From Rhodocyclaceae bacterium (GTDB lineage: Bacteria > Pseudomonadota > Gammaproteobacteria > Burkholderiales > Rhodocyclaceae), in assembly GCA_013426785.1 (NCBI GenBank), contig JACDZI010000012.1, forward strand, positions 1 through 54,226: a DNA stretch of 54,226 nucleotides. The letters run 5' to 3'. Below the pieces are notes generated by a model. The model worked only from the letters and a program-made list of their open reading frames with translations. It made no database searches and was not told where the DNA came from. Position numbers and translations under genes: made by a program. Below are positions 975-52,330 of this stretch, one piece after another. The first letter of the stretch is position 1. The number at the start of each line of letters is the position of its first letter.

Positions 975-2364
975 TCGCGCCGAAGCGCGCCAGCGTCCGT
1001 TTCCGCGCCAGCGCATGGTCGACCACCGGCGGCGGGTACTCTGCCGGCGGAAATGGCATCTGCCACGGTGCGTGGATGAACTTGTCCGGCACGTCCTTGA
1101 GTTCCGGCAGGTAGCGGCGGATGAATTTTCCCTGCGGGTCGAACTTTTCCGACTGCGTCACCGGGTTGAAGATGCGGAAGTAGGGCTGGGCATCGCAGCC
1201 GGTCGAGGCCGCCCATTGCCAGCCGCCGTTATTGGCGGCGAGATCGTAGTCGAGCAGCCAGTCGGCGAAGTGGGCTTCGCCCTGCCGCCAGTCGATGCCG
1301 AGATCCTTGGTCAAAAACGAGGCCGACACCATGCGCAGGCGGTTGTGCATCCAGCCGCTCTGCAACAACTGGCGCTGGGCGGCATCGACCAGCGGATAGC
1401 CGGTATGTCCGGTTTGCCATGCCGCGAACAGTTCGGGTGCCGCATCCCAGGCCAGCGTGTCATGGTCGGGTTTGAAGGCGTGCGCGACGACATCCGGCCG
1501 GTGCCACAGGACCATCTGGTAGAACTCGCGCCAGATGAGTTCGTTGAGCCACACCCCGGCGCCCTTTCCTTGCGGTTGCAGGCTTTCCGCATGGGCCGCA
1601 GCCGCGAGTTGCCGGATCGAGACCGTGCCGAAGCGCAGGTGCGGCGACAGGTAGGAGCAGCCTTTCACGGCGGGAAAATCGCGCGCCGCGTGGTAGCGGT
1701 CGATGCGCGTCAGGAAATCCTCGAACAGTTGCGCGCCGCCCGACATGCCACAAGGGAGCTTCAGGTCGGTCGGCAGAAAACCAAGATCAGACAAGGCCGG
1801 AAAAGTCGGTTCCGGCAGGACGGCAAGTTGCCCGTTCCCTGGTGTGCAGTCGTGTTCGGCCAGATCACCCGGAGACAACTTTGCCCGCCAGGCCCGGCTG
1901 TAAGGCGTAAACACCGAAAACGGCGTGCCGCCTTGGGTCAGCACCTCGTCGCGCTCGAAGATCACCTGGTCCTTGCAATCGATGAAGTCGCGCCCCTCGG
2001 TCGCCAGTTGTCGCGCCACCGCGGCATCGCGTTCGCGCGCAGCAGGTTCGTAGTCGCGGTTGGCATACACCGCGGCGATGCCCAAATCGGCCGCCAGTCG
2101 CGGGATTTCCTCGACCGCCCGGCCGTGACGGACGATCAGCCCGCCCCCCCTGGCCTTGAGCGCGGCAGCGAGTTCTTCTACCGCCCGCAGGATGAAGTCG
2201 ACGCGCCGGTCGGCAAAAAGTCGGCGCTGGCGCAACGGCTCCAGAATGTCGGTATCGAAGACGAAGGCGCAGAAAACCCGTTCATGCTGCCGCAGGGCGC
2301 GCGACAGGGCGGCGTGATCGAAATCACGCAGGTCGCGGCGAAACCAGACGAGGGCGGCAGTCAT
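955..2364 (-). CDS. phrB: Deoxyribodipyrimidine photolyase (cryptochrome/photolyase family)
   Basis: A 469-residue protein of normal family length. The N-terminal Rossmann-like antenna domain begins TAALVWFRRDLRDFDH, and the C-terminal FAD domain carries the family signature NNGGWQWAASTGCDAQPYF followed by RIFNPVTQSEKFDPQG. It repairs cyclobutane pyrimidine dimers with blue light using reduced FAD plus an antenna cofactor. The start at 2364 has a GGAAACAGG stretch a few bases upstream. Two copies of the dispersed 24-bp element touch this gene: a degenerate one inside codons about 42-49 (LRQRRLF) and an exact one in the 5' leader, 15 bases before the start codon. It converges on the glutaredoxin gene. 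Confidence 0.95.
   Translation of the reverse strand: MTAALVWFRRDLRDFDHAALSRALRQHERVFCAFVFDTDILEPLRQRRLFADRRVDFILRAVEELAAALKARGGGLIVRHGRAVEEIPRLAADLGIAAVYANRDYEPAARERDAAVARQLATEGRDFIDCKDQVIFERDEVLTQGGTPFSVFTPYSRAWRAKLSPGDLAEHDCTPGNGQLAVLPEPTFPALSDLGFLPTDLKLPCGMSGGAQLFEDFLTRIDRYHAARDFPAVKGCSYLSPHLRFGTVSIRQLAAAAHAESLQPQGKGAGVWLNELIWREFYQMVLWHRPDVVAHAFKPDHDTLAWDAAPELFAAWQTGHTGYPLVDAAQRQLLQSGWMHNRLRMVSASFLTKDLGIDWRQGEAHFADWLLDYDLAANNGGWQWAASTGCDAQPYFRIFNPVTQSEKFDPQGKFIRRYLPELKDVPDKFIHAPWQMPFPPAEYPPPVVDHALARKRTLARFGAIRAPKT
2216..2239 (+). repeat. Dispersed 24-bp element, degenerate copy (2 mismatches) inside phrB
   Basis: An A-tract, then GTCGGCGCTGGCGCAACGGC. It differs from the window consensus GTCGGCGCTGGCGGGACGGC at two positions. 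On the phrB strand it is read as part of LRQRRLF near residues 44-50. Confidence 0.6.
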
Positions 2365-2378
2365 AACCTGTTTCCATC

Positions 2379-2402
2379 AAAAGTCGGCGCTGGCGGGACG
2401 GC
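2379..2402 (+). repeat. Dispersed 24-bp element, exact copy in the phrB 5' leader
   Basis: AAAA followed by an exact match to the core GTCGGCGCTGGCGGGACGGC. It lies between phrB (start 2364) and the divergent HNH nuclease gene (start 2516), just at the edge of the AT-richer restriction-modification island. Confidence 0.9.
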
Positions 2403-2515
2403 GGGTAGCGACCCTGAGCTGCCGGACAATTGGATCATAACTAATGGCTACCTCCTGATGAGCAGTTGTCGTACCATTACAGGCAAACACAATCTTGCTG
2501 ATACGGTGGTGATGG

Positions 2516-9198: not shown

Positions 9199-9200
9199 CG

Positions 9201-10366: not shown

Positions 10367-11652
10367 AAATTTCCATCCAGAACGGTCGCGTCATCGACCC
10401 GGCCAGCGGTCTGGACCGGCCCGCCAGTGTCTTCATCGCCGACGGCAAAATAGTCGGCGCTGGCGAGACGGCACCCGGCGGTTTCCGCGCCGAGGGTGTC
10501 ATCGATGCGGGCGGCTGCATCGTCTGCCCCGGCCTGATCGACCTGTCGGCGCGCCTGCGCGAGCCCGGCTTCGAATACAAGGCCACGCTGGAATCCGAGA
10601 TGGCGGCGGCCGCCGCCGGCGGAGTGACGCGCCTGGTCTGCCCGCCCGACACCGATCCGCCGCTCGACGAGCCGGGCCTGGTCGAAATGCTCAAATACCG
10701 CGCACGCCAGCCCGGCTTCGCCCATGTGCATCCGCTCGGTGCACTGACGATGGGGCTGGCCGGCCAGCGCCTCACCGAGATGGCCGAACTGGCCGAGGCC
10801 GGCTGCATCGCCTTCGGCCAGGCCAATGCCAGCATCGTCGATACCCAGGTGTTGTTGCGCGCGATGCAGTACGCCGCCACCTTCGGCTTTTCCGTCTGGC
10901 TGCATCCGCAGGATGCCCATCTGGGCAGGAACGGTGTCGCACATGACGGTGCGGTCGCCGCGCGACTCGGTCTGGCGGGAATTCCCGTCATCGCCGAAAC
11001 CGTCGCCCTGGCGACCTATCTGCAACTGACGCGCGAAACCGGCGTGCGGCTGCACATTCGCCGTCTTTCGTCCGCGGCCGGGCTTGAACTGATCCGCGCC
11101 GCACGGGCCAGCGGTCTCCCGGTGACTTGCGACATCACGGTGAACCACTTGCATCTGTGCGATGACGATATCGGCTACTTCGATGCCCATGCCCGTCTCG
11201 ACCCGCCCCTGCGCAGCACTGCCGACCGCGCCGCGCTTGCCGCCGGCCTGGCCGATGGCAGCATCGACGTGCTCTGCTCCGATCACACCCCCGTCGATGA
11301 CGACGCCAAGCAGGTGCCGTTTGCGGAGGCTGAAGCCGGCGCCACCGGACTCGAATTGCTGCTGCCGCTTACACTGAAATGGGCCAACGAAAACCAGTTG
11401 CCGCTCACCACGGCACTGGCCAAGATCACCAGCGACCCGGCGCGCATCCTCGGGCTGGAATGCGGCCGCATCGCCGTAGACAGCCCCGCCGACCTGTGCA
11501 TCTTCGATCCGGCCACGGCCGTCACGGTCAGCCGCGAGCGGCTGAAGAGCCAGGGCAAGAATACACCCTTCCTCGGCCACGGCCTCGCCGGCGAGGTGCG
11601 CTACACCTTGATCGGCGGGCATCTCGCCTACGCGGCCGATCGGCTGCTGTGA
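10363..11652 (+). CDS. pyrC': Dihydroorotase-like non-catalytic subunit of aspartate transcarbamoylase (PyrC')
   Basis: A 429-residue amidohydrolase-fold protein of dihydroorotase length. Active enzymes have H-x-H in the motif D-x-H-x-H-x-R-E-P; here it reads LIDLSARLREPG, so both metal histidines are gone. Later positions are also changed (RRLSSAAGLEL where active enzymes have a histidine), while CSDHTP is retained. This matches the inactive pseudo-dihydroorotases that assemble with PyrB in Pseudomonas-type aspartate transcarbamoylase, so a structural role is inferred and an active PyrC should lie elsewhere. A near-exact copy of the dispersed element encodes KIVGAGETA at residues 29-37. The stop overlaps the next start by one base. 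Confidence 0.93.
   Translation: MKISIQNGRVIDPASGLDRPASVFIADGKIVGAGETAPGGFRAEGVIDAGGCIVCPGLIDLSARLREPGFEYKATLESEMAAAAAGGVTRLVCPPDTDPPLDEPGLVEMLKYRARQPGFAHVHPLGALTMGLAGQRLTEMAELAEAGCIAFGQANASIVDTQVLLRAMQYAATFGFSVWLHPQDAHLGRNGVAHDGAVAARLGLAGIPVIAETVALATYLQLTRETGVRLHIRRLSSAAGLELIRAARASGLPVTCDITVNHLHLCDDDIGYFDAHARLDPPLRSTADRAALAAGLADGSIDVLCSDHTPVDDDAKQVPFAEAEAGATGLELLLPLTLKWANENQLPLTTALAKITSDPARILGLECGRIAVDSPADLCIFDPATAVTVSRERLKSQGKNTPFLGHGLAGEVRYTLIGGHLAYAADRLL
10447..10472 (+). repeat. Dispersed element, 1 mismatch, inside pyrC'
   Basis: An A-rich lead, then GTCGGCGCTGGCGAGACGGC at 10453-10472. Read in frame it gives GAGETA within a surface beta-hairpin region near residue 32. The host protein appears of normal length, so the copy replaces ordinary sequence and is not an extra insertion. 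Confidence 0.75.
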
Positions 11653-13079: not shown

Positions 13080-16000
13080 TTACAGCAGGGGGGCGAGCCA
13101 TTTTTCGGCTTCTGGAATGCTGATGTTGGCGCGTGCCGACCAATCTTCAAGCTGGTCGCGGCCGATTTTCGTGATGGCGAAATACTTCGCCTGCGGGTGG
13201 GCGAAATAAAAGCCCGCGACTGAAGCAGCCGGCGTCATGGCGAAGTTTTCGGTTAGGCCCATGCCGGCATTGCCCGGCGGGTCGAGCAGGTCGAACAAGG
13301 CCTGTTTGACCATGTGGTCGGGGCAGGCTGGATAACCGGGCGCCGGGCGGATGCCCTGGTATTTTTCGGCAATCAGATCACCAAGGCTGAGACGCGCAGG
13401 ATTTTCCCTCTCTCGTCCATAACCCCAGTCGTCGATGCGCACACGCTCGTGCAGCCATTCGGTAGCGGCTTCGGCCAGCCGATCGGCCAGCGACTTCAGC
13501 ATGATCGCGTGGTAGTCGTCGTGCTGGGCAGCGAATTCTGCCAGCTTCGCCTCGATGCCGATGCCCGCCGTGACGGCGAAGGTGCCGATGTAATCTGCCG
13601 TCCCGCCAGCGCCGACTTTTGGTGCAATGAAATCGGCAAGGCAGAGATTGGGCTGGTCACTGGGCCGCTCGTGCTGCTGGCGCAGGCCGTGCCAAGTCAT
13701 CGCTACGGAGTCGCGCGTCTCATCGTTGTAAATCTCGATATCGTCGCCGACGGAATTCGCCGGGAACAAGCCAAACACTGCATTGGCGGTCAGCCAGTTT
13801 TCATCGACGATCTTCCGCAACATCGCCTGCGCATCGGCAAAAACCGAGCGTGCCTGCTCGCCGACCACGGCGTCGTCCAGCAGGTGCGGATAGCGGCCGT
13901 GCAGGTCCCAGGTCTGGAAGAAGGGCGTCCAGTCGATGTAGCGGGCCAGCGTTTCCAGGTCGATTTTGCACAGCGGGCGAATGCCCGGCCGGCGCGGCTT
14001 GAACGGTGAAAAGTCGAGGGTTTTCTTGTTGGCGCGCGCGGCTGCCAGCGTCAGCAGCTTCACGCCCTGCTTGCCGGCATGCTGTTCGCGCACCTTGGCG
14101 TAGTCGACGGCGATTTCGTCCTTGTAGCCGGCGGCATGGTCGATCGACAGCAACTTGGTAACGACGCCGACCGCGCGCGAGGCATCCGGCACATAGACCA
14201 CCGTACCTTGGTAATTGGGCGCGATCTTGATCGCGGTGTGAGCGCGGCTGGTGGTCGCCCCGCCGATCAGCAGCGGCGCGCTGAAACCCTGGCGCTGCAT
14301 CTCGCTGGCGACATGACTCATCTCTTCCAGCGAGGGCGTGATCAGGCCCGACAGGCCTACCGCATCGGCGTTGTGTTCGCGCGCGGCATGCAGGATCTTG
14401 TCCGGCGCAACCATCACGCCGAGGTCGACAATCTCGTAGCCATTGCAGGCCAGCACCACGCCGACGATATTCTTGCCGATGTCATGCACGTCGCCCTTGA
14501 CGGTGGCGAGCACGATCTTGCCTTTGGTCGCCGCGCCGGTGCGCAGCTTTTCTTCCTCGATGTAGGGCACGAGGTGGGCGACGGCCTGCTTCATGACGCG
14601 TGCCGATTTCACCACCTGCGGCAGGAACATCTTGCCGGCGCCAAACAGGTCACCGACCGCATTCATGCCGGCCATCAGCGGCCCTTCGATCACATGCAGC
14701 GGCGGCTTGCCATTGGCGGCGAGTGCCGCGCGGCATTCCTCGGTGTCGGTGACGACGTATTCGGTGATACCGCGCACCATGGCATGTTCGAGGCGTTTCT
14801 CGACCGGCCACTCGCGCCAGGAGAGATCCTGCACCTGCTCTTTTGCGGAACCCTTTACCGAAGTCGCGAACTCGACCAGCGCATCGCCCGGACTTTGGCC
14901 AGATGAGGGCTTGCGATTGAGCACCACGTCCTCGACCTTCTCGCGCAGCACCGGATCGAGCTGGTCATACACGCCCAGCTGGCCGGCGTTGACGATGCCC
15001 ATGGTGAGGCCGGCCTGGATGGCGTGGTAGAGGAAAACGGTATGGATCGCCTCGCGCACCGGCTCGTTGCCGCGGAACGAAAAGCTCACATTAGAGATGC
15101 CGCCGGAGATATTGGCGTGCGGCAGATTGGCGCGAATCCAGCGGCAGGCTTCGATGAAATCGACCGCGTAGTTGTCGTGCTCGGCGATGCCGGTGGCAAT
15201 CGCAAACACGTTCGGGTCGAAGATGATGTCCTCGGCCGGGAAGCCGTCGGCAACCAACAGATCGTAGGCACGCTTGCAGATGTCGATCTTGCGTTGGTAG
15301 GTATCGGCCTGACCGGCTTCGTCGAAGGCCATGACGATGACGGCGGCACCGAGCCGGCGGGCCTTGCGCGCCTGTTCGAGAAACTTGGCTTCGCCTTCCT
15401 TCATCGAGATGGAGTTGACGATGCCCTTGCCCTGCGCGCACTTCAGGCCGGCCTCGATCACTTCCCATTTCGAAGAGTCGAACATCAGCGGCACGCGCGA
15501 AATGTCGGGCTCGCTGGCAACGAGGTTGGTGAAGCGCACCATGGCGGCTCGGCCATCGAGCATTGCCTCGTCCATGTTGATATCGACGATTTGGGCACCA
15601 CCCTCGACCTGCTGGCGTGCGACGGTCAGCGCGTCGTCGAGACGGCCTTCGAGGATCATCTTCGCGAAGGCGCGCGAGCCAGTGACATTGGTACGCTCGC
15701 CGACGTTCACGAACAGCGAGTTAGCACCGATGTTGCAGGGCTCCAGCCCGGATAGTCTTAATGAAAGGTCGGCGCTGGCAGGACGGCGGGGGGGAATGTT
15801 TTTCAGTGTCTCGGCGATGGCCTTGATATGGTCGGGCGAAGTACCGCAGCAGCCACCAGCGATGTTGAGCAGGCCGTCGCGCGCCCAGCCTGCCAGTTCG
15901 TCGGCCAGCATCTGCGGCGTCTCGTCGTAGCTGCCGAAGGCGTTAGGCAGGCCGGCATTGGGGTGCGCAGAGACGAAGCAATCGGCGACCCGGCCGATTT

Positions 16001-24646: not shown

Positions 24647-28273
<3,627 letters not shown>

Positions 28274-28276: not shown

Positions 28277-30088
28277 ATGCTGAGTTTTGATTTCACCACC
28301 CTGCGCGCCGCCTATACCGCCGGCACCCTGACCCCGACTGCGCTGGTCGAGGAAATCTTGCGGCGCACTGCGGATGACCCCCACCAGGTCTGGATCCAGC
28401 GCCTGCCGGAAGCCAGGCTGCGGCAGTATGCGCAAGCGCTCGCAGGCAAGGATGCGGCGAACTTGCCGCTATACGGTATTCCCTTTGCCATCAAGGACAA
28501 CATTGACCTGGCCGGGGTACAAACCACGGCGGGCTGTCCTGCCTATGCGTTCACGCCGGACCGCAGCGCGTTCGTCGTGCAACAGCTGATCGATGCCGGC
28601 GCGATCCCGGTGGGCAAGACCAATCTCGACCAGTTCGCCACCGGCCTCAACGGTACGCGCTCGCCCTTCGGCGCCTGCCGCAATGCCTTCGATCCGGACT
28701 ACGTTTCGGGAGGATCAAGTTCGGGTTCGGCGGTCGCCGTGGCCAAGGGCTACGCCAGCTTTTCGCTCGGCACCGATACCGCCGGGTCGGGTCGGGTGCC
28801 GGCGGCGTTCAACAACCTCGTGGGTCACAAGCCGACTTGCGGCTGGTTGTCCACGACCGGGGTGGTCCCCGCCTGTCGCTCGCTCGATGCCGTCTCGATT
28901 TTTGCCCTGACGGCGGCGGATGCCGCAGCGGTGCTGGCGGTGGCGGCTTGCTTTGATGCGGCTGATCCGTATGCGCGTCCGGTCGAAGGCCATGGCTTCG
29001 ATTTTGGCCGGGCCGCCCATTTCAAATTCGGCGTACCGCGCACCGCTGACCTGGAATTCTTTGGTGATACGGCCAGTGAAGCGCTTTTCCGCGCTGCCGT
29101 CGCGCGCTTGCAGGCGCTGGGCGGCACGGCCGTCGAGGTCGACCTTAGCCCCTTCATCGCCACGGCCAAACTCCTTTACGAGGGGCCGTGGGTGGCCGAG
29201 CGCTATCAGGCCATCCGCGACTTCTTCGATACCCAGTCCGAGGCGCTTTTCCCGGTTACGCGCTCGATTACCGCCAGCGGCCAGAAGTTCTCGGCCGCCG
29301 ACACGTTCGCCTATCTTTACAAGCTGAAGGCAGCCAGGCGTACCTGCGATGCCGTCTGGGCCAGCGTGGATTGCATCATCACGCCGACCGCGCCGACGAT
29401 CTACACCATCGCGCAAATGGAAGCCGATCCGATTCGCCTCAACTCGAATCTGGGCACCTACACCAATTTCATGAACCTGCTCGACTACGCCGCCACCGCC
29501 CTGCCGGCGGGCTTTCGCGGCGACGGCCTGCCGCTGGGCGTAACGCTGTTTACCCCGGCGGCGCAGGACCTGCCCCTGCTGCATCTGGCCGCTCAACTGC
29601 ACGCAGCGTTGCCGGGGGCGACGCTGGGCGCGACCGGCTTGTCGCTCGCGCAGGCTAGCGCCGTGCCGCCGGCGCCGACTTTTCCAAGCCTGCCCTCGGG
29701 GCAGGTGCGGGTGGCCGTGTGCGGTGCCCACCTCTCGGGATTACCGCTGAACGGGCAACTGACTTCGCGCGGTGCCCGCCTGATCGCCACGACAACCTCC
29801 TCGCCGGAGTATCGGCTCTATGCGTTGCCCGGCGGTCCGCCATTACGACCCGGCATGCTGCGGGTCGCCGCTGGCGGCGCGGCCATCGCTGTCGAGGTGT
29901 GGGAGATGCCGGCACGCGCGTTCGGTTCCTTCGTCGCCGGCATTCCGGCGCCGCTGGGCATCGGTACCATAACCCTGGCCGATGGCAGTGCCGTGCAGGG
30001 TTTCGTCTGTGAGGCGCTAGCAACCACAGTCGCCGAAGACATTACGGAGTATGGTGGCTGGCGGGCCTGGCTCAACCGCCAAATTTGA
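28277..30088 (+). CDS. atzF: Allophanate hydrolase
   Basis: A 603-residue protein. The N-terminal amidase-signature domain (residues about 1-455) carries the Ser-cisSer-Lys triad: K in FAIKDNIDLAG, and the serines in GGSSSGSAV and TDTAGSGRVP. The C-terminal domain (GQVRVAVCGAHLSGLPLN to the end) is the extra domain that sets allophanate hydrolases apart from plain amidases. It releases two ammonia and CO2 from allophanate, the last step of the pathway. It starts three bases after the carboxylase stop. The dispersed element (AVPPAPTF, residues 462-469) lies exactly in the linker between the two domains. Confidence 0.94.
   Translation: MLSFDFTTLRAAYTAGTLTPTALVEEILRRTADDPHQVWIQRLPEARLRQYAQALAGKDAANLPLYGIPFAIKDNIDLAGVQTTAGCPAYAFTPDRSAFVVQQLIDAGAIPVGKTNLDQFATGLNGTRSPFGACRNAFDPDYVSGGSSSGSAVAVAKGYASFSLGTDTAGSGRVPAAFNNLVGHKPTCGWLSTTGVVPACRSLDAVSIFALTAADAAAVLAVAACFDAADPYARPVEGHGFDFGRAAHFKFGVPRTADLEFFGDTASEALFRAAVARLQALGGTAVEVDLSPFIATAKLLYEGPWVAERYQAIRDFFDTQSEALFPVTRSITASGQKFSAADTFAYLYKLKAARRTCDAVWASVDCIITPTAPTIYTIAQMEADPIRLNSNLGTYTNFMNLLDYAATALPAGFRGDGLPLGVTLFTPAAQDLPLLHLAAQLHAALPGATLGATGLSLAQASAVPPAPTFPSLPSGQVRVAVCGAHLSGLPLNGQLTSRGARLIATTTSSPEYRLYALPGGPPLRPGMLRVAAGGAAIAVEVWEMPARAFGSFVAGIPAPLGIGTITLADGSAVQGFVCEALATTVAEDITEYGGWRAWLNRQI
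29660..29683 (-). repeat. Dispersed element, 2 mismatches, inside allophanate hydrolase
   Basis: The reverse complement is AAAA plus GTCGGCGCCGGCGGCACGGC. On the gene strand it encodes AVPPAPTF in the interdomain linker. The same peptide arises from the copy in comM. Confidence 0.75.
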
Positions 30089-31507: not shown

Positions 31508-33001
31508 TCAGCCATTCAGTCCGCGCCGGTACTGGATCGCCTCGGCCACATGCGGGCCGCGGATGATGTCCACGCCGGCCAGGTCGGCGATGGTACGCGC
31601 CACCTTGAGGATGCGATGATAGGCACGCGCCGAGAGATCGAGGCGCACCATCGCCTGCTTGAGCAGGGCGGCCCCCGCGCAATCGGGCAGGCAGTGCAGG
31701 TCGACCTCGTCCGGGCCGAGTGCGGCGTTGGGTTTGCCCTGCCGGGCGAGTTGGCGTTGGCGCGCGGCAGCCACTCGCGCCTGCACGATGCTTGACGTTT
31801 CACCCGCGCCGCGCGTCGTCAGCTCACTTTCCGTCACGGCGGGCACCTCGACCATCAGGTCGATACGGTCGAGCAGCGGGCCGGACAGTTTTCCACGATA
31901 ACGCACGATCTGGTCGGGGGTGCACCGGCACTTGCCGCTGGCATGGCCGAGCCAGCCGCAGGGACAGGGGTTCATCGCCGCAATCAATTGAAAACGCGCA
32001 GGGAATTCCGCCCGCCGGGCGGCCCGCGAGACGCGGATGTGGCCGGTTTCCAGCGGTTCGCGCAGGGCTTCGAGCACACGCCGCTCGAACTCCGGCAGCT
32101 CGTCAAGAAACAGCACGCCGTGGTGGGCCAGCGAAATCTCGCCGGGACGCGGGACGCCACCGCCCCCCACCAGCGCCGGCGCGGACGCCGAGTGGTGCGG
32201 TGCCTGGAAAGGCCGTTGCCCCCAGCGCGCCGCATCGAAGCTGCCGGCCAGCGAATGCACGGCCGCGCTTTCCAGCGCTTCCTGCTCGGTCATCGGCGGC
32301 AACAGGCCGGGTAGCCGGCAGGCCAGCATCGACTTGCCCGAACCCGGCGGACCACTCATCAACAGGCTGTGATTGCCGGCAGCGGCCACTTCCAGCGCCC
32401 GTTTGGCCGGCAGTTGGCCCTTAATTTCGGCCAGGTCGGGTACAAAAGTCGGCGCTGGCGGGACGGCGGGCAGGTGCGGCGTCAGCGGGGTGTTGCCCGT
32501 CAGGTGGGCGCAGACCTCGAGCAGGCTGCGCGCCGGCAGGATGGTCGCGCGGCCTACCAGCGCCGCTTCGTCAGCGCTGGCAGCCGGGAGGACGAAAGCG
32601 CGTCCGGCACCGGCGGCGGAAAGACACATCGCCAGCGTGCCGCGCACCGGCCGCAATTCGCCGGACAGCGACAGTTCGCCGGCGAACTCATGGGCTTCGA
32701 GGCAGGTAGCCTCGATCTGCTGCGAAGCGAGCAGGATGCCGAGCGCGATCGGCAGGTCAAAGCGGCCCGATTCCTTGGGCAGGTCGGCCGGCGCGAGATT
32801 GACGGTGATGCGCTTGGCAGGAAAATTGAAGCCGCTGTTCTGTAGCGCGGCACGCACGCGATCACGCGCTTCCTTGACTTCGGTCTCGGGCAGTCCGACC
32901 AGGGTGAAACTAGGCAAACCACCGGCCAGATGGACTTCGACCACGACTTCCGGCGCCGTCAGGCCGGCCAGCGCGCGACTGTGCAGTACGGCGAGCGACA
33001 T
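31508..33001 (-). CDS. comM: ComM/YifB-type Mg-chelatase-like AAA+ ATPase
   Basis: A 497-residue protein of family length. The N-terminal Lon-like subdomain (VLHSRALAGLTAPEVVVEVHLAGGLPSFTLVGLPE) is followed by the AAA+ domain with Walker A MSGPPGSGKSML and Walker B VLFLDELPEF, the C-rich loop MNPCPCGWLGHASGKCRCTPDQI, and a C-terminal helicase-like part. ComM is a branch-migration helicase that promotes integration of incoming DNA during natural transformation. The ATG is preceded directly by an exact dispersed element, leaving no room for a normal Shine-Dalgarno sequence. A second exact copy encodes AVPPAPTF at residues 179-186, in the linker before the AAA+ domain. Confidence 0.95.
   Translation of the reverse strand: MSLAVLHSRALAGLTAPEVVVEVHLAGGLPSFTLVGLPETEVKEARDRVRAALQNSGFNFPAKRITVNLAPADLPKESGRFDLPIALGILLASQQIEATCLEAHEFAGELSLSGELRPVRGTLAMCLSAAGAGRAFVLPAASADEAALVGRATILPARSLLEVCAHLTGNTPLTPHLPAVPPAPTFVPDLAEIKGQLPAKRALEVAAAGNHSLLMSGPPGSGKSMLACRLPGLLPPMTEQEALESAAVHSLAGSFDAARWGQRPFQAPHHSASAPALVGGGGVPRPGEISLAHHGVLFLDELPEFERRVLEALREPLETGHIRVSRAARRAEFPARFQLIAAMNPCPCGWLGHASGKCRCTPDQIVRYRGKLSGPLLDRIDLMVEVPAVTESELTTRGAGETSSIVQARVAAARQRQLARQGKPNAALGPDEVDLHCLPDCAGAALLKQAMVRLDLSARAYHRILKVARTIADLAGVDIIRGPHVAEAIQYRRGLNG
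32444..32467 (+). repeat. Dispersed 24-bp element, exact copy inside comM
   Basis: AAAA plus the exact core. On the comM strand it encodes AVPPAPTF, between the N-terminal subdomain and the AAA+ domain (just before VPDLAEIKGQ). Confidence 0.9.
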
Positions 33002-33007: not shown

Positions 33008-33031
33008 AAAAGTCGGCGCTGGCGGGACGGC
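33008..33031 (+). repeat. Dispersed 24-bp element, exact copy filling the ubiK-comM gap
   Basis: AAAA plus the exact core. The gap between the ubiK stop (33035) and the comM start (33001) is 33 bases and 24 of them are this element. Confidence 0.92.
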
Positions 33032-33034: not shown

Positions 33035-33283
33035 CTAGGGCTGGGCGATCTTGCGTTGCGCCTCGAGTTCGGCTAGGCGGGCTTCCAGTGCCGTCAGGCG
33101 AGCCTGTGCCTGGGCCAGCAGGGCTTTCTGCACCTCGAAATCATCGCGGGTGACGAGATCGAGCTTGGCAAGTCCGGCGGTCAGCATTGCGCGCAGGTTC
33201 TTTTCGATGTCGCCAGCCGGCGTCGCGGCCAGGGCGGCCGAAATTCGCGCACTCAATTCTTCAAGTTTTTTGGGGTCGAGCAT
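33035..33283 (-). CDS. ubiK: Ubiquinone biosynthesis accessory factor UbiK (BMFP domain)
   Basis: An 82-residue protein. It starts MLDPKKLEELSARISAALAATPAGDIEKNLRAML, typical of the BMFP/YqiC family, and ends in a coiled coil (VQKALLAQAQARLTALEARLAELEAQ). UbiK assists aerobic ubiquinone synthesis together with UbiJ and binds membranes; the trimeric coiled coil is a family trait. It lies directly upstream of comM on the same strand and is divergent from the torF-glnK-amtB locus. Confidence 0.9.
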   Translation of the reverse strand: MLDPKKLEELSARISAALAATPAGDIEKNLRAMLTAGLAKLDLVTRDDFEVQKALLAQAQARLTALEARLAELEAQRKIAQP

Positions 33284-36326: not shown

Positions 36327-36350
36327 AAAAGTCGGCGCTGGCGGGACGGC
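36327..36350 (+). repeat. Dispersed 24-bp element, exact copy after the amtB terminator
   Basis: An A-tract plus the exact core, lying 12 bases after the terminator T-run and 6 bases before the stop codon of the convergent membrane-protein gene. Confidence 0.92.
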
Positions 36351-37653: not shown

Positions 37654-39534
<1,881 letters not shown>

Positions 39535-41403: not shown

Positions 41404-42434
41404 GATGGCTGGCGCTGCTCCTGCTGGCTTTCCTTGCCGCCTGCGGCAAGCCCGCACCCGTCGGCCAGGAAGCCTACGTGTTTGGCACACGCGTCGAAGT
41501 CCTCGTCTGGGGCGCGCCCGAAGCCAGGGCGCATGCTGCGATGGGCGCAGTCCTGCGCGAATTCGACCGCCTGCACCGGACCTACCACGCCTGGCAGCCC
41601 TCGGAACTGACGGCCCTGAACGAGGCCATCGCCGCCGGCCGGCCGCACGAAGTCTCCGAGGAGCTTGCCGGGTTGATTGCCAGCGCGCAGGAACTGTCGG
41701 CTCAGGGCGAACACCTGTTCGATCCCGGCATTGGCCGGCTGATTGCCCTGTGGGGCTTCCAGGCGGACGAGTTCAAGGCGGTACTGCCCGATCCGGGCGA
41801 ACTCGCCAGGCTCGCCGCCGCAAAACCCTCGATTGCGAAACTCAAGCTGGAGAATCGCCGTGTTGCCAGCGCCGACTTTTCAGTGGCGCTCGATTTCGGC
41901 GGCTACCTGAAGGGCGTTGCGCTCGATCGCGCGGCAGCCATCCTCAAAACGCACGGTATCGCCAACGCGCTGATCAACATCGGCGGTAACGTGCTGGCCA
42001 TCGGCAGCAAAGGCGAAACGCCCTGGCGCGTCGGCATCCAGCATCCGCGCGCGGCCCAGTCAGGCGGAGTGCCGCTGGCCACTCTGGAATTGCGCGATGG
42101 CGAGGCGATCGGCACCTCTGGCGACTACCAGCGCTTTTTCGAGCTGGACGGCCGGCGCTACTGCCACCTGATCGACCCGCGCAGTAGCGCGCCGGCCACC
42201 GGCACCCAGGCCCTCACCGTGCTGATCCCGCCGGGCCCCGCTGCGGGCATGGGTTCGGATGTGCTGTCGAAGCCGCTGTTCGTCGCCGGTGAGGACTGGC
42301 CGCGCCTCGCCCGCAAGCTCGACGTCGCCCAGGTGCTGCGCGTCACCGCGGACGGCAGCCTGTCGGCCACCGCAGCCATGAAGGCGCGGCTGAAGTTCGA
42401 GGCCGGGAATCGGGACATTCGCGTTGCGGACTAA
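41400..42434 (+). CDS. apbE: FAD:protein FMN transferase (lipoprotein)
   Basis: A 344-residue ApbE protein. The N-terminus MRWLALLLLAFLAACGKP is a lipoprotein signal with lipobox LAAC. The core has LDFGGYLKGVALDRAA, ALINIGGNVLAIG, GTSGDYQRFFELDGRRYCHLIDP and the acidic metal-binding residues of the family. ApbE attaches FMN to periplasmic or membrane flavoproteins such as RnfG/NqrC. The target is not in the window. A degenerate dispersed element encodes RRVASADF at residues about 153-160, just ahead of LDFGGYLKG. Confidence 0.92.
   Translation: MRWLALLLLAFLAACGKPAPVGQEAYVFGTRVEVLVWGAPEARAHAAMGAVLREFDRLHRTYHAWQPSELTALNEAIAAGRPHEVSEELAGLIASAQELSAQGEHLFDPGIGRLIALWGFQADEFKAVLPDPGELARLAAAKPSIAKLKLENRRVASADFSVALDFGGYLKGVALDRAAAILKTHGIANALINIGGNVLAIGSKGETPWRVGIQHPRAAQSGGVPLATLELRDGEAIGTSGDYQRFFELDGRRYCHLIDPRSSAPATGTQALTVLIPPGPAAGMGSDVLSKPLFVAGEDWPRLARKLDVAQVLRVTADGSLSATAAMKARLKFEAGNRDIRVAD
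41857..41880 (-). repeat. Dispersed element, 3 mismatches, inside apbE
   Basis: The reverse complement is AAAA plus GTCGGCGCTGGCAACACGGC. The gene reads VASADF where ApbE proteins have a variable strand before LDFGG. Confidence 0.6.
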
Positions 42435-43065: not shown

Positions 43066-44871
43066 TTACGATGTTTGGCCATTATTCCCTGATGACAGCA
43101 AAGAATCGATGTTGCGCTGCAGCCATAATTCAAGCAGTGCCAGGTGCCACAGCTTGCTGCCCTGGATGCGCGTCAAATGCTGTTCGGGTTCTGCCAGCAG
43201 CTTCTCGACGTATTCGCGCCGGTAGAGGCCGCGCTGGCGGCAGGCGGGCGCATCGAGAATGCCGCGCATGAAATCGAGGAACTCGCCGCGCACGAACTTG
43301 AGCGCCGGCATGGGGAAATAGCCTTTCGGCCGGTCGATCACCAAAGCGGGCAGCAGTCCGCGCGAGATGGTTTTGAGGACGTGTTTGCCGCCCGAGCCCA
43401 GCTTCAGTTCTGGCGGCAGCTGTGCGGCCAGTTCGACGAGGTGGTGGTCGAGGAAGGGCACGCGCGCCTCCAGCCCCCAGGCCATGGTCATGCTATCGAC
43501 GCGCTTGACCGGGTCGTCGGTGATCAGCAGGGTCGCCTCGGCGCGCAAGAGTTGGTCGATGAATTCATCGGCGTAGGGTTCGGCGAGTTTAGCCGCCAGC
43601 AATTCGCCGGTCACGTCGCCTACCTGAAAAGTCGGCGCCGCCAGGACGGCAAATTCGTCATGGTCGCGGTCGAAATAATGGCGACGCAGGCGATCGACAT
43701 AGGGGCCACCATCCTTACCCTCGGTAGTCATCTTCGCGTGCCAGGAATAGCCGGCGAACACCTCGTCGGCCCCTTGCCCGCTCTGCACCACCTTCACGGT
43801 CTTGCTGACCTGCTCGGACAGCAGGTAGAACGAGACAACATCCTGGCTGACCATCGGCTCGGCCATGCAGTCGATCGCCTCGGGCAGGCGGCGCAGTACC
43901 TCGGCGTTGGGGATGGCGATCTGGTGGTGGCGCGTGCCGAAATGTTCCGCCACGGCGGACGAGTACTCGAACTCGTTGCCGCGCTCCTCCGGATGATCCT
44001 CGAAGCCAATGGAAAAAGTCAGCAGGTCGGGCACGCCCTGTTCGGCCAGCAGCGCCACCAGCAGCGAGGAATCCAGCCCACCAGACAGCAGCACGCCCAC
44101 CTTGACGTCGGCGATCTCCAGCCGTTTCTTCACCGCCAGGCGCAGGGCGGCATGGATCGCCTCGGTCCATTCGCCTTCGCTCTTCGGCAATGCTGGGCGC
44201 TGCGCCTTGAGCGACCAGTAGCGGCGGGAAGTCGTCCTGCCAGTGGCATCGAGTGACAACGTCGTGCCCTGCTCCAGCTTGCGGATGCCCTTGAGGATCG
44301 TGTGCGGCGGCGGCACGACGGAATGCAGCGTGAACTGGTGGTGCAGCGCCACCGGATCGATGGATGTTTCCACGTCGCCCGCCGCCAGCAGCGCCTGGGT
44401 GGTCGAGGCGAAGCGGAAGAACTTGTCGGTGCGCGCGACGTAAAGCGGCTTGATGCCGAGCCGGTCGCGCGCGAGAAACAGTTTGCCACCATCCCACAGC
44501 GCGAAGGCGAACATGCCGTTCAGGCGTTCGACGCAGGCCTCGCCCCATTCGGCATAGGCGCGCAGGATGACCTCGGTGTCACCGTCGGAGAAGAAGACGT
44601 GGCCGCGCCCGATCAGTTCATGGCGCAATTCCGGGTAGTTGTAGATGGTGCCGTTGAACACCAGCGCCAAGCCAGCCGCGACCATCGGCTGGCGCGAACG
44701 CTCGGAGAGGTCGATGATCGCCAACCGGCGATGGCCGAATGCCACGGGGCCGTCGGTCCAGAAACCCTCGCCGTCTGGCCCGCGCCGCGCCAGTGTTGCG
44801 CTCATGCGCGCGACGACCCCCGGCTCCGACCGCTGGCCATCGAAGCGTAGTTCGCCGGCTATGCCGCACAT
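43066..44871 (-). CDS. Asparagine-synthase-type amidotransferase, likely N-acetylglutaminylglutamine amidotransferase group
   Basis: A 601-residue protein. N-terminal glutaminase domain with catalytic Cys2 (MCGIAGELRF), RRGPDGEG and FNGTIYNY; C-terminal synthase domain with the PP-loop VGVLLSGGLDSS and VQSGQGADEVFAGY. The segment TLHSVVPPPHTILKGIRKLEQGT matches, from memory, the group that amidates an N-acetylglutaminylglutamine osmolyte. That group is usually encoded beside its synthetase, which is absent here, so plain asparagine synthase remains possible. A degenerate dispersed element encodes LAAPTF near residues 408-415. Confidence 0.85.
   Translation of the reverse strand: MCGIAGELRFDGQRSEPGVVARMSATLARRGPDGEGFWTDGPVAFGHRRLAIIDLSERSRQPMVAAGLALVFNGTIYNYPELRHELIGRGHVFFSDGDTEVILRAYAEWGEACVERLNGMFAFALWDGGKLFLARDRLGIKPLYVARTDKFFRFASTTQALLAAGDVETSIDPVALHHQFTLHSVVPPPHTILKGIRKLEQGTTLSLDATGRTTSRRYWSLKAQRPALPKSEGEWTEAIHAALRLAVKKRLEIADVKVGVLLSGGLDSSLLVALLAEQGVPDLLTFSIGFEDHPEERGNEFEYSSAVAEHFGTRHHQIAIPNAEVLRRLPEAIDCMAEPMVSQDVVSFYLLSEQVSKTVKVVQSGQGADEVFAGYSWHAKMTTEGKDGGPYVDRLRRHYFDRDHDEFAVLAAPTFQVGDVTGELLAAKLAEPYADEFIDQLLRAEATLLITDDPVKRVDSMTMAWGLEARVPFLDHHLVELAAQLPPELKLGSGGKHVLKTISRGLLPALVIDRPKGYFPMPALKFVRGEFLDFMRGILDAPACRQRGLYRREYVEKLLAEPEQHLTRIQGSKLWHLALLELWLQRNIDSLLSSGNNGQTS
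43627..43650 (+). repeat. Dispersed element, 3 mismatches, inside the amidotransferase gene
   Basis: AAAA then GTCGGCGCCGCCAGGACGGC. On the gene strand it is read AVLAAPTF at residues about 408-415, in a variable region of the synthase domain. Confidence 0.6.
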
Positions 44872-44912: not shown

Positions 44913-44936
44913 AAAAGTCGGCGCTGGCGGGACGGC
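44913..44936 (+). repeat. Dispersed 24-bp element, exact copy between divergent genes
   Basis: An A-tract plus the exact core, in the 123-base gap between the amidotransferase (start 44871) and the periplasmic binding protein gene (start 44995). Confidence 0.92.
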
Positions 44937-46137: not shown

Positions 46138-46138
46138 G

Positions 46139-49100
46139 CTAGAGCAGCACGCGCTCGATGCCGCCGTTGTTGGCGGCAGCGACATACCGGCCCAGCCAGT
46201 CCGCACCGAGGATCTGGCGCGCCAGCTCGACCACGATGTAATCGGCCTCGATCGGGGCGTCTTCGCGATAGCGCGACAGGCCCTGCAGGCAGCTCGGGCA
46301 GCTGGTGAGGATTTTCGTCGCCGCGCTGTCAGCGCCGAGTTTTTCGACGCCGGCGACAATCTCCTGTTGCTTGCGGAAACGTACCTGCGTCGATACGTCG
46401 GGGCGTGTCACCGCCAGCGTGCCAGATTCGCCACAGCAGCGGTCGGACAGCAGCACGTCCTTGCCCAGCAGCGTCTTCGCCACCTTGAGCGGGTTGTGAG
46501 CCTTCATCGGCGTGTGGCAGGGGTCGTGGTAGAGGTACTGGCTACCCTGCAAGCCATCCAGCTTGACGCCTTTCTCCAGCAGGTATTCGTGGATGTCGAG
46601 CAGCCGGCAGCCGGGGAAGATGCGCTCGAATTCGTAAAATTGCAGCTGGTCGATGCAAGTGCCGCAGCTGACCAGCACGGTGCGGATGTCGAGGTAGTTG
46701 AGCGTGTTGGCGACACGATGGAACAGCACGCGGTTCTGCGTGGTGATGGCATGGCCCCTGTCCTCGTCGCCGCCGGCCCGTTGCGGATAGCCGCAGCACA
46801 GGTAGCCGGGCGGCAGCACGGTGGTGGCGCCGACATGCCACAGCATCGCCTGCGTCGCCAGACCGACCTGCGAGAACAGCCGCTCGGAACCGCAGCCGGG
46901 GAAATAGAACACGGCATCCATGTCTTCCATCGCCCCATTGGCCCGCAGCGGGTTGCGGATCACCGGAATCATCGCGGCGTCCTCGACATCCAGCAACGCC
47001 CGCGCGGTGCGCGCCGGCACGCCCGCCGGCAACGGCTTGTTGAGGAAGTGGATCACCTGCGTCTTGAGTTCCGGCTGGCCCAGCGAGGCGGGCGGATGCT
47101 TGACCGTTTCCTGCGTCAGGCCGAACGACTGGGCCAGTCCGTGGCCGAAGCGCTGGGCGCGGTAGCCCCAGTCGATCATGCCGGTCTTGAGGGCGCGGAC
47201 CCTGCCCGGATCGGTGGCGTTGAGGAACGCCATCGCCAGCCGTGTCGCCGGCGCCGACTTTTTCTTGCCGGTCTTGCGCAGGAAGTTGCGCATGGCGATC
47301 GACACGTCACCGAAGTCGATGTCCACCGGGCAGGGCTTGATGCACTTGTGGCAGACCGTGCAGTGGTCGGCGACGTCCGAGAATTCCGCGAAGTGCTTGA
47401 GCGAGATGCCGCGCCGCGTCTGCTCCTCGTAGAGGAAGGCCTCGACCAGCAGGCCGACGCCGAGGATCTTGTTGCGCGGCGAGTAGAGCAGGTTGGCGGG
47501 CGGCACGTGGGTCGAGCACACCGGCTTGCACTTGCCGCAGCGCAGGCAGTCCTTGACCATGTCGGACAACGTGCCGATATCCGACTGCTCCATGATCAGC
47601 GATTCGACGCCGAGCAGGGCGAACGAGGGCGTGTAGGCATTGCGCAGGTCGCCAGGTAAGTCAGGGAGGGCCATCAGCTTGCCCTTGTTGAAGCGACCCT
47701 CGGGGTCGATCTTGCGCTTGTAGTCGCGGAAGGGCGCGATCTCGGCGTCGCTAAGGAATTCCAGCTTGGTGATGCCGATGCCGTGCTCGCCGGAAATCAC
47801 GCCGCCGAGGCGCTTGGCCAACGCCATGATGCGCTCGACGGTATGGTAGGCCGTCTGCAGCATCGCGTAGTTGTCGGAGTTGACCGGGATGTTGGTATGC
47901 ACGTTGCCGTCGCCGGCGTGCATGTGCAGCGCGATGAAGACGCGGCCCTTCAGCACTTCCTGATGGATGGCCAGGATGCGTTCGAGGATCGACCCATAGG
48001 CGACGCCGGCGAAAATCTCCTTGAGTAGCGGCTTGAGTTCGGTTTTCCAGGAGACGCGCAGCGAATAGTCCTGCAACGCCGGGAAGTGCCGGTCGAGGTT
48101 ATCCAGCAATCCCTGCCAGCGCGCGCGCACTTCGGCCACGGTCGCCAGCGCCTGGTCGCGGCGGTCGCCGATCAGTTCGCCCTTGTCCAGCCCCGTATCC
48201 CCCAGGTGCAGGGGCAGGTCGCCGCCGAGGAAATCGGCCAGCGCGTCACACAGGGCCAGCTTGTTGCGGATCGACAGTTCGATGTTGAGCCGCTCGATGC
48301 CGTCGCAGTAGTCGCCCATGCGCGGCAGGGGAATCACCACGTCCTCGTTCACCTTGAAGGCGTTGGTATGGCGCGAGATCGCCGCCGTGCGGGCGCGGTC
48401 GAGCCAGAAACGCTTGCGCGCCTCGGCGCTGACGGCGATGAAACCCTCGCCGCCGCGCGCGTTGGCCATGCGCACCACGTCGGCGGTGGCGCGCATCACG
48501 GCGGTTTCGTTTTCGCCGACGATGTCCCCGATCAGCACCATCTTCGGCCGGCCCGCATTTTTCCCTGTTCGCTTGGCTTTGATCGCATAGCCGACCGCCC
48601 GCACGTAGCGCTCGTCGAGGTGTTCGAGGCCGGCCAATTGGACTCCGGCCGCCAGCCCGGCACCGCCGGGCTTGAAGTAGTCGGTAATCTCGACGATGCT
48701 CGGCACCGCATCGCGCACCTGGCCGAAAAACTCAAGGCAGACGGTGCGCGTCACCGGCGGCATCTTGTGCAAGATCCACACCGCCGAGGTGATGATGCCG
48801 TCGCAGCCTTCCTTCTGCACGCCGGGCAGGCCGGCGAGGAACTTGTCAGTGACGTCCTTGCCCAGCCCGGCCTTGCGGAAGGTCCGGCCGGGAATCGACA
48901 GGAATTCCTCACCTTCGACCTGGCCGTCATCCGTGAGGTGCTTGAGGCGGAAGGTGGCGGTTTCCTGTTCGTGGATCTTGCCCAGGTTATGGCCAATCCT
49001 CTCGACTTCGAGCCACTTGCCCGCGGTATCGACCATTTTCCACGAGGCGAGGTTGTCGAGCGCCGTGCCCCACAGCACGGCCTTTTTGCCGCCGGCATTC

Positions 49101-50033: not shown

Positions 50034-50057
50034 GCCGTCCCGCCAGCGCCGATTTTT
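50034..50057 (-). repeat. Dispersed element, 1 mismatch, upstream of cas3
   Basis: The reverse complement is an A-tract plus ATCGGCGCTGGCGGGACGGC, in the 201-base gap between the oxidoreductase (start 49933) and cas3 (start 50135). No convincing promoter was seen in that gap. Confidence 0.85.
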
Positions 50058-50134
50058 TTCGAAAAAAACGTACAGCAGGCGCGTCTGGTGAGCCACCAGG
50101 GCCTTAGCATGGCACTATTGTTATCGGGGGGCAG

Positions 50135-52330
50135 ATGGATTACATCGCGCATGTCCGGAAGGATGGAGAAGACTGGCGAGTTCATCCGCTGGATGAACAT
50201 CTGGCCGGAGTATCTGCGCTTGCAGCCTGTTTCGCACATACTCTTGGCGAAGATTGCGCACGACTGGCCGGTCTGTGGCATGACCTGGGCAAGTACGCAC
50301 CCGCTTTTCAATCGATGATTCAGCGTGAGTCCGGCTACGACCCGGAAGCGCACATCGAAAGTGGCCCGCGCAACCATTCCACCGCCGGCGCCCTGTATGC
50401 CGTCAAGAAACTCGGCCCGCCAGGCCGGGTTCTTGCCTATTTGATTGCCGGACATCACGCCGGTCTACCTGATTGGTTCGGAGACCAGAATGCTGGCGCG
50501 TCGCTGTCCGTGCGTTTGACACAGAACGAGCACCTTGATGTCTTGCCGATGGCCGATATTCCTGGCGATATCCTCGCGCCGCCGCCTCCCGCGACGCTGA
50601 AAATACCGGGTAGCCGCGAAGGCGCGCACCTGTGGCTGCGGATGCTGTTTTCCTGCCTGGTGGATGCTGATTTTCTGAATACGGAAGCGTTCATGGCGTC
50701 GGAGAAGACAGAGATTCGCCGGCAGGATGCGCCAGTTACGAAATTGCTGGAATTCCTTGATACGCACATGGCGAAATTCGACGGAGCGCCGGCAACGCCG
50801 GTAAACCGCATCCGATCTGACGTACTGCGCCAATGCCGCGATAAATCGACGTTGCCGCCGGGACTGTTCAGCCTTACCGTACCGACCGGCGGTGGCAAGA
50901 CCTTGGCAAGCATGACCTTCGCGCTTAACCATGCCAAGGCGCACGACAAGCGGCGGGTGATCTATGCGATTCCCTACACCAGCATCATCGAGCAGACCGC
51001 AAAAATCTATCGCGCCATTTTCGGCGAGGCCGTGATCGAACATCACAGCAGCCTCGACCCTGATCGCGAGACCGCCAAGAGCCGGCTGGCAACCGAGAAC
51101 TGGGACGCGCCGGTGATCGTCACCACCAACGTGCAATTGTTCGAGTCTCTGTTCGCCGCAAAGACTTCGCGCTGCCGCAAACTGCACAACCTCATCGACA
51201 GCGTGATCGTGCTTGACGAGGCGCAGACATTGCCACCTGAATTGCTCCAGCCCTGCCTCGACGTACTGAATCTGCTGGCGAAGCACTATGGAGTATCCAT
51301 CGTGCTGTGTACGGCGACCCAACCCGCCTTGACCAATGTCGCCAGTTTTGGTCGCGAATTGCGCGGACTGGAAAGCGTGCGCGAGATCATTGACGAACCG
51401 CAAGTCTTGTTCGATGCGCTCAAGCGTGTGACGGTCGAGATGCCCACCGATTTTCATGCGCACGAAGATTGGGATGCCATCGCCGCAAAAGTCGGCGCTG
51501 GCGGGACGGCGACACTGACCGTCGTCAATACCCGTAACGACTGCCGCGAACTCTGGCAGCGGCTGAATCAGATGGCCGGGGGCGCCATTCATCTTTCCGC
51601 TTCGATGTGTGGCGCGCAACGGGCGCAGTGCATTGTCGAGATTCGTCGCCGGCTCAAGACCAATGAACCGGTGCGGGTGGTCTCCACGCAATTGATAGAG
51701 GCCGGAGTCGACGTGGATTTTCCTGTCGTCTATCGGGCGCTTGCCGGCATCGATTCCATCGCCCAAGCTGCCGGACGCTGCAACCGCGAAGGCCGGCGCG
51801 AATCGGGGCGTGTCGTGGTCTTTGTGCCGCCCAAAGCCGCGCCTCCGGGCCAGTTGCGACGTGCCGCGCAAACTACGATCGGTCTGCTGGCGGGTACCTC
51901 ACTCGATCCACTGGCCCCGACCACCTTCGAGCGCTACTTCCGCCACTTCTATCTCTCCGAAGCGAACTGGGACAAGCACGACATATATGGTCTGCTGGTG
52001 CAAGACGCCAAAGGCATGGAGTTCCAGTTCCGTACCGCCGCCGAAAAATTCCGCTACATCGATGACGCTGATAGCCAGCCAATTTTGGTCTGGTGGAACG
52101 ATAGCCGCAGCCTTATCAGCAAGTTGAAGAATGATGGACCGGAACGCTGGTTGATGCGAAAGCTCCAGCGATACGCGGTCAACCTGCCACGCCGTATGGT
52201 CGAGAAGCTGGTGCTTACCGATGAGGTGCGCGAAGTGTGGCCGGGAATATTCGCCCAAAACGTCGATACGCTATACCATATGCATCTTGGCATTGTCATC
52301 GGCGCTAACAACGAAGCGCTGGTGTATTGA
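50135..52330 (+). CDS. cas3: CRISPR-associated nuclease/helicase Cas3, type I-C
   Basis: A 731-residue protein. N-terminal HD nuclease: the first His in PLDEHLAGV, HD in GLWHDLGKYAPAF, then NHSTAGA and AGHHAGLPDW. The superfamily 2 helicase follows: Walker A VPTGGGKTLASM near residue 250, VLDEAQ near residue 358, CTATQPA, and motif VI QAAGRCNREGRR. It unwinds and degrades target DNA recruited by Cascade. Gene order cas3-cas5c-cas8c identifies type I-C. An exact dispersed element encodes KVGAGGTA at residues 452-459, at the start of the second RecA-like domain before TLTVVNTRNDC. Confidence 0.95.
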   Translation: MDYIAHVRKDGEDWRVHPLDEHLAGVSALAACFAHTLGEDCARLAGLWHDLGKYAPAFQSMIQRESGYDPEAHIESGPRNHSTAGALYAVKKLGPPGRVLAYLIAGHHAGLPDWFGDQNAGASLSVRLTQNEHLDVLPMADIPGDILAPPPPATLKIPGSREGAHLWLRMLFSCLVDADFLNTEAFMASEKTEIRRQDAPVTKLLEFLDTHMAKFDGAPATPVNRIRSDVLRQCRDKSTLPPGLFSLTVPTGGGKTLASMTFALNHAKAHDKRRVIYAIPYTSIIEQTAKIYRAIFGEAVIEHHSSLDPDRETAKSRLATENWDAPVIVTTNVQLFESLFAAKTSRCRKLHNLIDSVIVLDEAQTLPPELLQPCLDVLNLLAKHYGVSIVLCTATQPALTNVASFGRELRGLESVREIIDEPQVLFDALKRVTVEMPTDFHAHEDWDAIAAKVGAGGTATLTVVNTRNDCRELWQRLNQMAGGAIHLSASMCGAQRAQCIVEIRRRLKTNEPVRVVSTQLIEAGVDVDFPVVYRALAGIDSIAQAAGRCNREGRRESGRVVVFVPPKAAPPGQLRRAAQTTIGLLAGTSLDPLAPTTFERYFRHFYLSEANWDKHDIYGLLVQDAKGMEFQFRTAAEKFRYIDDADSQPILVWWNDSRSLISKLKNDGPERWLMRKLQRYAVNLPRRMVEKLVLTDEVREVWPGIFAQNVDTLYHMHLGIVIGANNEALVY
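51487..51510 (+). repeat. Dispersed 24-bp element, exact copy inside cas3
   Basis: AAAA plus the exact core, read as KVGAGGTA, the same peptide as in metH. It is placed at the loop between the two helicase domains. Confidence 0.92.

Follow-up and report, generated by a model that had tools for sequence, protein, structure and literature searches.

A dispersed 25-bp word in Rhodocyclaceae genomes that resembles a self-DNA uptake sequence

We examined a stretch of 54,226 nucleotides from a Rhodocyclaceae bacterium (assembly GCA_013426785.1, contig JACDZI010000012.1, positions 1 to 54,226; "the window" hereafter means this whole stretch), which includes genes for a B12-dependent methionine synthase (metH), a urea-carboxylase-like protein, a YifB-family ATPase and, at its right end, cas genes. 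Scattered through the genes and gaps of the window is a short element with a 20-nt core, which we found 20 times at 0–3 mismatches (13 forward and 7 reverse), while dinucleotide shuffles of the window (n = 100) gave an expectation of 0.04 core matches and never more than 1. An earlier reading made from the letters of the window (the sequence-only reading) had listed 18 copies, 12 forward and 6 reverse, had described a run of As before the core and had judged the repetition to be beyond chance. All 18 positions were recovered with the mismatch counts it gave, and the A-tract and the excess over chance were confirmed; its tally was incomplete, as matches at 29864 (+) and 38558 (−) had to be added. 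Across the 241 contigs of the genome, which total 3.24 Mb, there are 741 copies with up to 3 mismatches, 377 forward and 364 reverse, against 6 matches (1 + 5) to a reversed-pattern control, so that the count is neither at the level of shuffled sequence nor confined to one contig, and the strands are balanced.

The sequence logo and the placement of the copies were determined in a genome sample that totals 434,032 bases and is made up of seven whole or partial contigs, the window among them. In this sample the element is a sharply bounded 25-mer, AAAAGTCGGCGCTGGCRRGACGGCR, which consists of AAAA, GTCGGCGCTGGC, a variable RRG (R = purine), ACGGC and then R. At up to 4 mismatches there were 126 copies, 70 of them on the plus strand: 40 exact, 41 with one mismatch, 21 with two, 14 with three and 10 with four. 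Among the 116 copies with up to 3 mismatches, each of the four As upstream of the core is conserved at 90–93%, core positions 13 and 14 are G or A in most copies and the position after the core is purine-rich (G 52%, A 37%). No column in the flanks of the 25-mer exceeded about 0.15 bit in these 116 copies, which indicates that the element is not a decayed larger repeat, as the flanks of such a repeat would show.

Our own simple gene caller predicted 395 genes in the sample (88% coding); it missed genes such as a comP-like pilin, so some of the "gaps" are wrong. Of the 116 copies, 71 lie inside genes, 38 are intergenic and 7 straddle a border, corresponding to 0.19 copies per kb in genes vs 0.73 per kb outside (about four times as many). 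The gene-internal copies follow the orientation of the gene in 40 cases and oppose it in 31, and their reading frames are strongly uneven. Convergent gaps are rich in copies (11 in 2.9 kb) and divergent gaps are poor (4 in 14.4 kb); tandem gaps hold 20 in 27.3 kb, 15 of which run opposite to the genes, and the remaining 3 intergenic copies lie at contig ends. Intergenic copies often follow closely on a stop codon or occupy a convergent gap, and in tandem gaps their mostly reverse orientation would make the transcript read ...GACUUUU, which would suit a transcription terminator or a 3′-end regulatory element spread through the genome. However, most copies lie inside genes and in both orientations, and GACTTT follows within 60 nt downstream in only 1 of the 38 intergenic copies; we consider this explanation scarcely credible. 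The sample's longest run without a copy extends 28.6 kb from a contig end and contains genes named by reading as ribosomal proteins, both large RNA-polymerase subunits (rpoBC) and elongation factors EF-Tu and EF-G. The fewest copies were found in segments below 56% G+C (0.29 per 5 kb; 7 of 84 segments), some of which belong to the ribosomal cluster. The copies lie in permissive places and the most conserved genes are avoided, as is the case for the DNA uptake sequences (DUS) of Neisseriaceae and the uptake signal sequences (USS) of Pasteurellaceae.

The copies were also spaced more evenly than by chance, with a coefficient of variation of 0.825 vs 1.08 ± 0.10 in simulations which preserved the coding/non-coding split (0.1% of 2,000 simulations were as low). 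Even spacing, together with the sharp long consensus and the many copies, would suit a binding site used genome-wide by a cytoplasmic protein, for nucleoid organisation, for chromosome handling or as a Chi-like recombination signal, and kept by selection at many sites; the dialects described below could then track a changing DNA-binding protein. Chi and the FtsK-orienting polar sequences (KOPS) are likewise dispersed over-represented oligonucleotides, but they are strand-polar and 8 nt long, whereas our element has 25 nt and no polarity. Both strands were represented in all seven contigs sampled, and at up to 1 mismatch the complete chromosome of the congener G080 carries 116 plus and 119 minus copies, with 100 plus copies among those listed spanning 82 kb to 2,425 kb of its 2,737 kb. 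This mixture of strands argues against a polar replication signal, and the replication signal that the sequence-only reading had offered as an alternative fails in that form; the origin and terminus themselves were not located. To our knowledge no architectural site of such length and copy number has been described. Orthologous sites also gain or lose copies from one related species to the next, so individual sites can be dispensed with, and we think a chromosomal binding site unlikely.

We compared copies at orthologous loci, as the sequence-only reading had suggested, in nine congeners (including the motif-poor G231), G101 of genus g46, the window and one more contig of the same genome (g and G are our labels for genera and genomes). 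From 512 genes called we obtained 82 coding copies, 65 of which had a reciprocal orthologue; an orthologue counted as motif-less at ≥ 7 mismatches and a copy as kept at ≤ 3. For 57 of the 65 the site holds the word in another species too. The fraction of copies kept was 64% of 70 at a protein identity of ≥ 85%, 39% of 220 at 75–85%, 10% of 59 at 65–75% and 17% of 12 at 50–65%, although these rows are not independent, since one pair can be counted from both sides. In 149 comparisons of a copy with a motif-less orthologue the protein window had the same length in 61%, and the side with the motif was the longer one in 21% and the shorter one in 18%; 33 of the 49 copies with a motif-less orthologue had at least one of the same length. 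As motif-less orthologues are mostly of equal length, copies arise mostly by substitution in tolerant, length-variable protein loops and not by insertion.

The element is abundant in only part of the family. In 297 genomes drawn evenly from it, 37 genomes from six genera carried 200–784 copies: 11 of 12 in the bacterium's own genus (g1), 11 of 12 in g2, the one genome each of g9 and g38, 4 of 4 in g46 and 9 of 9 in g64. Counts of the form of the word found in the window (dialect 1) were intermediate in G023 (g23, 61), G242 (g2, 58) and G045 (g45, 39), and the remaining genomes had at most 30 copies (reversed-pattern controls 0–21), with only 2 in G231 of the own genus. In a MetH tree of 50 sampled genomes and 19 named rows (quick method, one gene) all 24 rich genomes placed fell in one 31-row group with a support of 99, which also takes in G231, G242, G023, G114, G029 and two named uncultured rows; two changes are needed inside it to explain the rich rows. 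Rows near Azonexus, Accumulibacter, Thauera and Aromatoleum are motif-poor and lie outside this group. Of 399 genomes sampled from the order, 13 belong to the family and the 386 others had 0–8 matches each (controls up to 15).

The maximum outside the family was found in G377 (family f38), where 7 of 8 places resemble copies of dialect 1 or dialect 2. True-looking copies also occur in motif-poor genomes (G022:C12:64177-66032, G018:C1:4957512, G254:C2:3855, G239:C11:7015, and C66 and C104 of G056), sometimes paired within 2 kb. Such isolated copies may have come with DNA of motif-rich donors or may reflect contamination in fragmented assemblies; in the former case single copies in motif-poor genera could mark donor DNA and the word may serve as a tracer of gene flow. 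The strict dialect-1 pattern was present in 103 viral-contig stretches of IMG/VR, and among 80 of these (L317-L396) 74 had one copy and 6 had two. Contig C1 of G158 (g19) has five identical 20-mers, GTCGGCGCTGACGGCACGTC, which likely lie in copies of one repeated element.

A k-mer scan (4–56 kb per genome) made AAAAGTCAGTC stand out in G010 (g11) and, besides a few local repeats, no other dialect emerged, small samples leaving room for others. This word and that of the window share the frame AAAAGTC-N12-ACGGC and differ in its middle, and with the form found in g45 there are three dialects. Searched without mismatches, the frame gave 34–300 copies in 10 of 11 g11 genomes (0 in G155) and 93 copies in G045, and the dialect-1 genera also match it; controls gave 0–5 per genome across the 297. 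Logos were made for dialect 2 (AAAAGTCAGTCCCSGCRGSACGGCG; 50 copies vs 4 control in 277 kb of G010) and for dialect 3 (AAAAGTCGACGCTGGGRANACGGCR; 23 copies vs 2 control in 124.5 kb of G045); the search itself fixed the ends, so these logos are informative only in the middle and at the borders. The dialects are consistent within genera, dialect 2 belonging to g11 and dialect 3 to the single g45 genome; with regard to phylogeny it should be noted that g45 is off the MetH tree and that G010 sits on a long branch, its placement unsure. Repeats of other kinds included a 10-mer found 42 times in 37 kb of G057 (L128, L196), which is probably a clustered regularly interspaced short palindromic repeat (CRISPR) array, and the short repeats AGCGGGCTTG (9 times in 51 kb) and TTCGCGGGAA (7 times in 13 kb) in G041 (L115, L116, L195) and G052 (L124).

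Judged from sequence comparisons, the element is probably a self-DNA uptake sequence. The likeness to such sequences, which the sequence-only reading had pointed out, is supported by abundance, strand balance, lack of polarity, location, substitutional origin, spacing and dialects. These traits agree with the published ones of DUS and USS, as does the orientation and frame bias inside genes (PMC12616744, PMC2397512, PMC1626085, PMC3630211, PMC2346458). Three of these articles describe DUS as present in hundreds to thousands of copies at permissive sites of the core genome, in dialects which track phylogeny (PMC3630211, PMC2397512, PMC12616744). DUS are 10–13 nt long and are recognised by the minor pilin ComP, whereas the Rhodocyclaceae word has about 25 nt, is G+C-rich with an A-tract and occurs in another family. 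It does not contain the DUS word, GCCGTCTGAA, and the CTG that is invariant in DUS is present in dialect 1 and absent from dialect 2, so the element does not belong to the DUS. The resemblance to USS lies in an extended motif, which reaches up to about 32 nt with AT tracts (PMC12616744), and in an origin by substitution, examined there by the same kind of gap analysis (PMC1626085). The receptor proposed for USS is ComN/PpdA. The USS core is AAGTGCGGT or ACAAGCGGT, whereas in the Rhodocyclaceae logo almost every one of the 25 positions is strong, the A-tract lies upstream, both cores are absent and no AT signal follows downstream; membership of the USS was not supported either. The word is about twice as long as the 9–12-nt cores of known uptake sequences. 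The analogy suggests that the element works like an uptake sequence, and we file it as such and not as a DUS or USS.

Neisseriaceae and Pasteurellaceae are called the only known families with uptake sequences in a 2025 article (PMC12616744). No paper on such a motif in Rhodocyclales, Rhodocyclaceae or Accumulibacter was found among the titles listed from the open-licence literature of PubMed Central (PMC), where the letters GTCGGCGCTGGC return no paper. We lean slightly towards a third, independent uptake-sequence system of a Rhodocyclaceae type, with a bipartite 25-bp word (AAAAGTC and ACGGC ends around 12 dialect-bearing bases), a putative receptor at the pilus tip and at least three dialects that would act as transformation barriers between genera, mostly without recognisable ComEA. 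We infer that cells of the clade would be naturally transformable via type IV pili, now or recently, and that double-stranded DNA with the 25-bp word would be preferred by a receptor on the cell surface, for which a minor pilin is the likeliest candidate. Fragments with a good match would be taken up and recombined more often, and by such molecular drive matches would increase, through substitution and recombination, at all places where proteins and promoters can accommodate them. Changes of the receptor along lineages would produce dialects, and loss of uptake or of specificity would leave the copies to decay. If true, a third family whose word, length and dialects are distinct would allow receptor-word co-evolution to be tested by comparison, and could be used to test selfish drive vs a guard against foreign DNA, and the role of word length.

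Several results weigh against an uptake sequence. The first concern length, as 39% of the 149 comparisons at motif sites showed length variation vs 4% of 1,578 control windows placed at random in the same genes (the other 96% being of equal length); this is also more than for USS, for which gaps are reported in 24% of alignments, 115 of 474 (PMC1626085). For 6 of the 49 copies every motif-less orthologue was shorter by ≥ 4 residues (for 1 of 49 every one was longer by ≥ 4). One loop of MetH gained or lost copies with in-frame length changes: in the 44 of 50 rows parsed it has mostly 8–15 residues without the word (18–26 in a few) and mostly 15–21 with it, reaching 29 in G114 (4 mismatches) and 35 in G080, and the loop at copy 13597..13620 exceeds that of the nearest motif-less orthologues, G211 and G126, by 4 residues. 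The stretched loop of G080 (L177) contains one partial and one exact copy close together. These added residues, the six copies with shorter orthologues and the strong consensus would also suit a tiny self-copying insert of the kind of miniature inverted-repeat transposable elements (MITE), repetitive extragenic palindromic (REP) elements or integrons, and a tiny proliferating repeat was the other alternative of the sequence-only reading. However, the motif side is longer about as often as it is shorter, most copies have a motif-less orthologue of the same length and the flanks are not conserved. Vacant sites lacking just the element's length, which a mobile insert would leave behind, did not emerge apart from the MetH exceptions; +8 residues, which matches that length, was not among the 12 commonest length differences (+4 was seen 7 times). 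The proliferating repeat therefore mostly fails, and we consider an insert very improbable.

The second concerns inverted terminator pairs, which are frequent in DUS and USS and nearly missing here: there was no inverted pair within 200 bp in the 434 kb, and one was noticed among the genome matches listed. The third is the machinery, which we surveyed in 80 family genomes (37 motif-bearing and 43 others) and which gives a mixed picture: the presence of ComEC, of minor pilins and of a ComM-type ATPase gene speaks for an uptake sequence, and the rarity of recognisable ComEA against one. A minor-pilin operon elsewhere in the genome begins with a 140-amino-acid pilin whose match to PF16732 ComP_DUS scores 36.8 bits (cut-off 27.3); GspH-like, PilV and PilW genes come next, and then a gene without a family match, called PilX from its position only. 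The PF16732 pilin is present in 75 of the 80 genomes, motif-bearing or not, and the operon in motif-rich and motif-poor genera alike, so that both were ruled out as markers of motif carriers and nothing found singles out a receptor. ComEC is present in 78 of the 80 and is kept in the motif-poor G231, G242 and G155 (0 copies of dialect 2), so that loss of ComEC does not explain why the motif was lost there. What speaks most strongly against a working system is that ComEA (TIGR00426 over cut-off) was recognised in 3 of the 37 motif-bearing genomes, all of g64, vs 10 of the 43 others; ComEA may have diverged or been replaced by another protein. HHH_3 (PF12836) was of little use alone as a probe for ComEA, its strong matches being mostly frames of about 800 amino acids, which we take to be Tex.

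The 34 motif-bearing genomes without recognisable ComEA would fit a relic of a formerly active uptake system, now inactive in most of these genomes, and decay at various stages would account for the low counts in g23, g66, g29, G231 and G242. Against this, the 40 exact and 41 one-mismatch copies among 126 would be hard to keep without continuing drive, and counts are high in six genera; we therefore regard a relic as quite unlikely.

The copies in the window are given in Table 1. The YifB-family ATPase gene is of the ComM type and has one exact copy inside and another adjoining it; ComM has a role in transformation. The aligned metH site of copy 15764..15787 is also filled in genera g2, g9, g38 and g64, and copy 37797..37820 is a same-length substitution relative to motif-less orthologues. 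Gene 24647-28273 encodes biotin carboxylase, carboxyltransferase and biotinyl domains. The right end of the window (50135-54182) carries cas3 and cas8c of type I-C, with one more gene between them, and an exact copy lies inside cas3.

Table 1 Copies of the element in the window. Coordinates include A-tract positions (24-nt span = 4 nt before the core + 20-nt core).
Copy	Span	Core	Strand	Location and remarks
Degenerate, 4 mismatches	1801..1824	1805-1824	+	in gene 955-2364 (−)
2 mismatches	2216..2239	2220-2239	+	in gene 955-2364 (−)
Exact	2379..2402	2383-2402	+	intergenic
1 mismatch	10449..10472		+	in amidohydrolase-family gene 10363-11652, dihydroorotase-like by reading
Exact	13597..13620		−	in metH 13080-16775
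1 mismatch	15764..15787		+	in metH, opposite to gene
2 mismatches	27036..27059		+	in urea-carboxylase-like gene 24647-28273
2 mismatches	28114..28137		+	in gene 24647-28273, biotinyl domain
2 mismatches	29660..29683		−	in gene 28277-30088 (amidase + allophanate hydrolase C-terminal domain)
Match, 3 mismatches	29860..29883		+	in gene 28277-30088; without A-tract, weak, perhaps chance
Exact	32444..32467		+	within YifB-family (ComM-type) ATPase gene 31508-33001 (−)
Exact	33008..33031		+	between genes 31508-33001 (−) and 33035-33283 (−)
Exact	36327..36350		+	intergenic, convergent genes either side
1 mismatch	37797..37820		−	in ABC-F-like ATPase gene 37654-39534
3 mismatches	38558..38581		−	in gene 37654-39534; with A-tract
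3 mismatches	41857..41880		−	in gene 41400-42434
3 mismatches	43627..43650		+	in asparagine-synthase-like gene 43066-44871
Exact	44913..44936		+	intergenic
3 mismatches	47239..47262		−	in FAD-oxidase/CCG-domain protein gene 46139-49933
1 mismatch	50034..50057		−	intergenic
Exact	51487..51510		+	in cas3 gene 50135-52330

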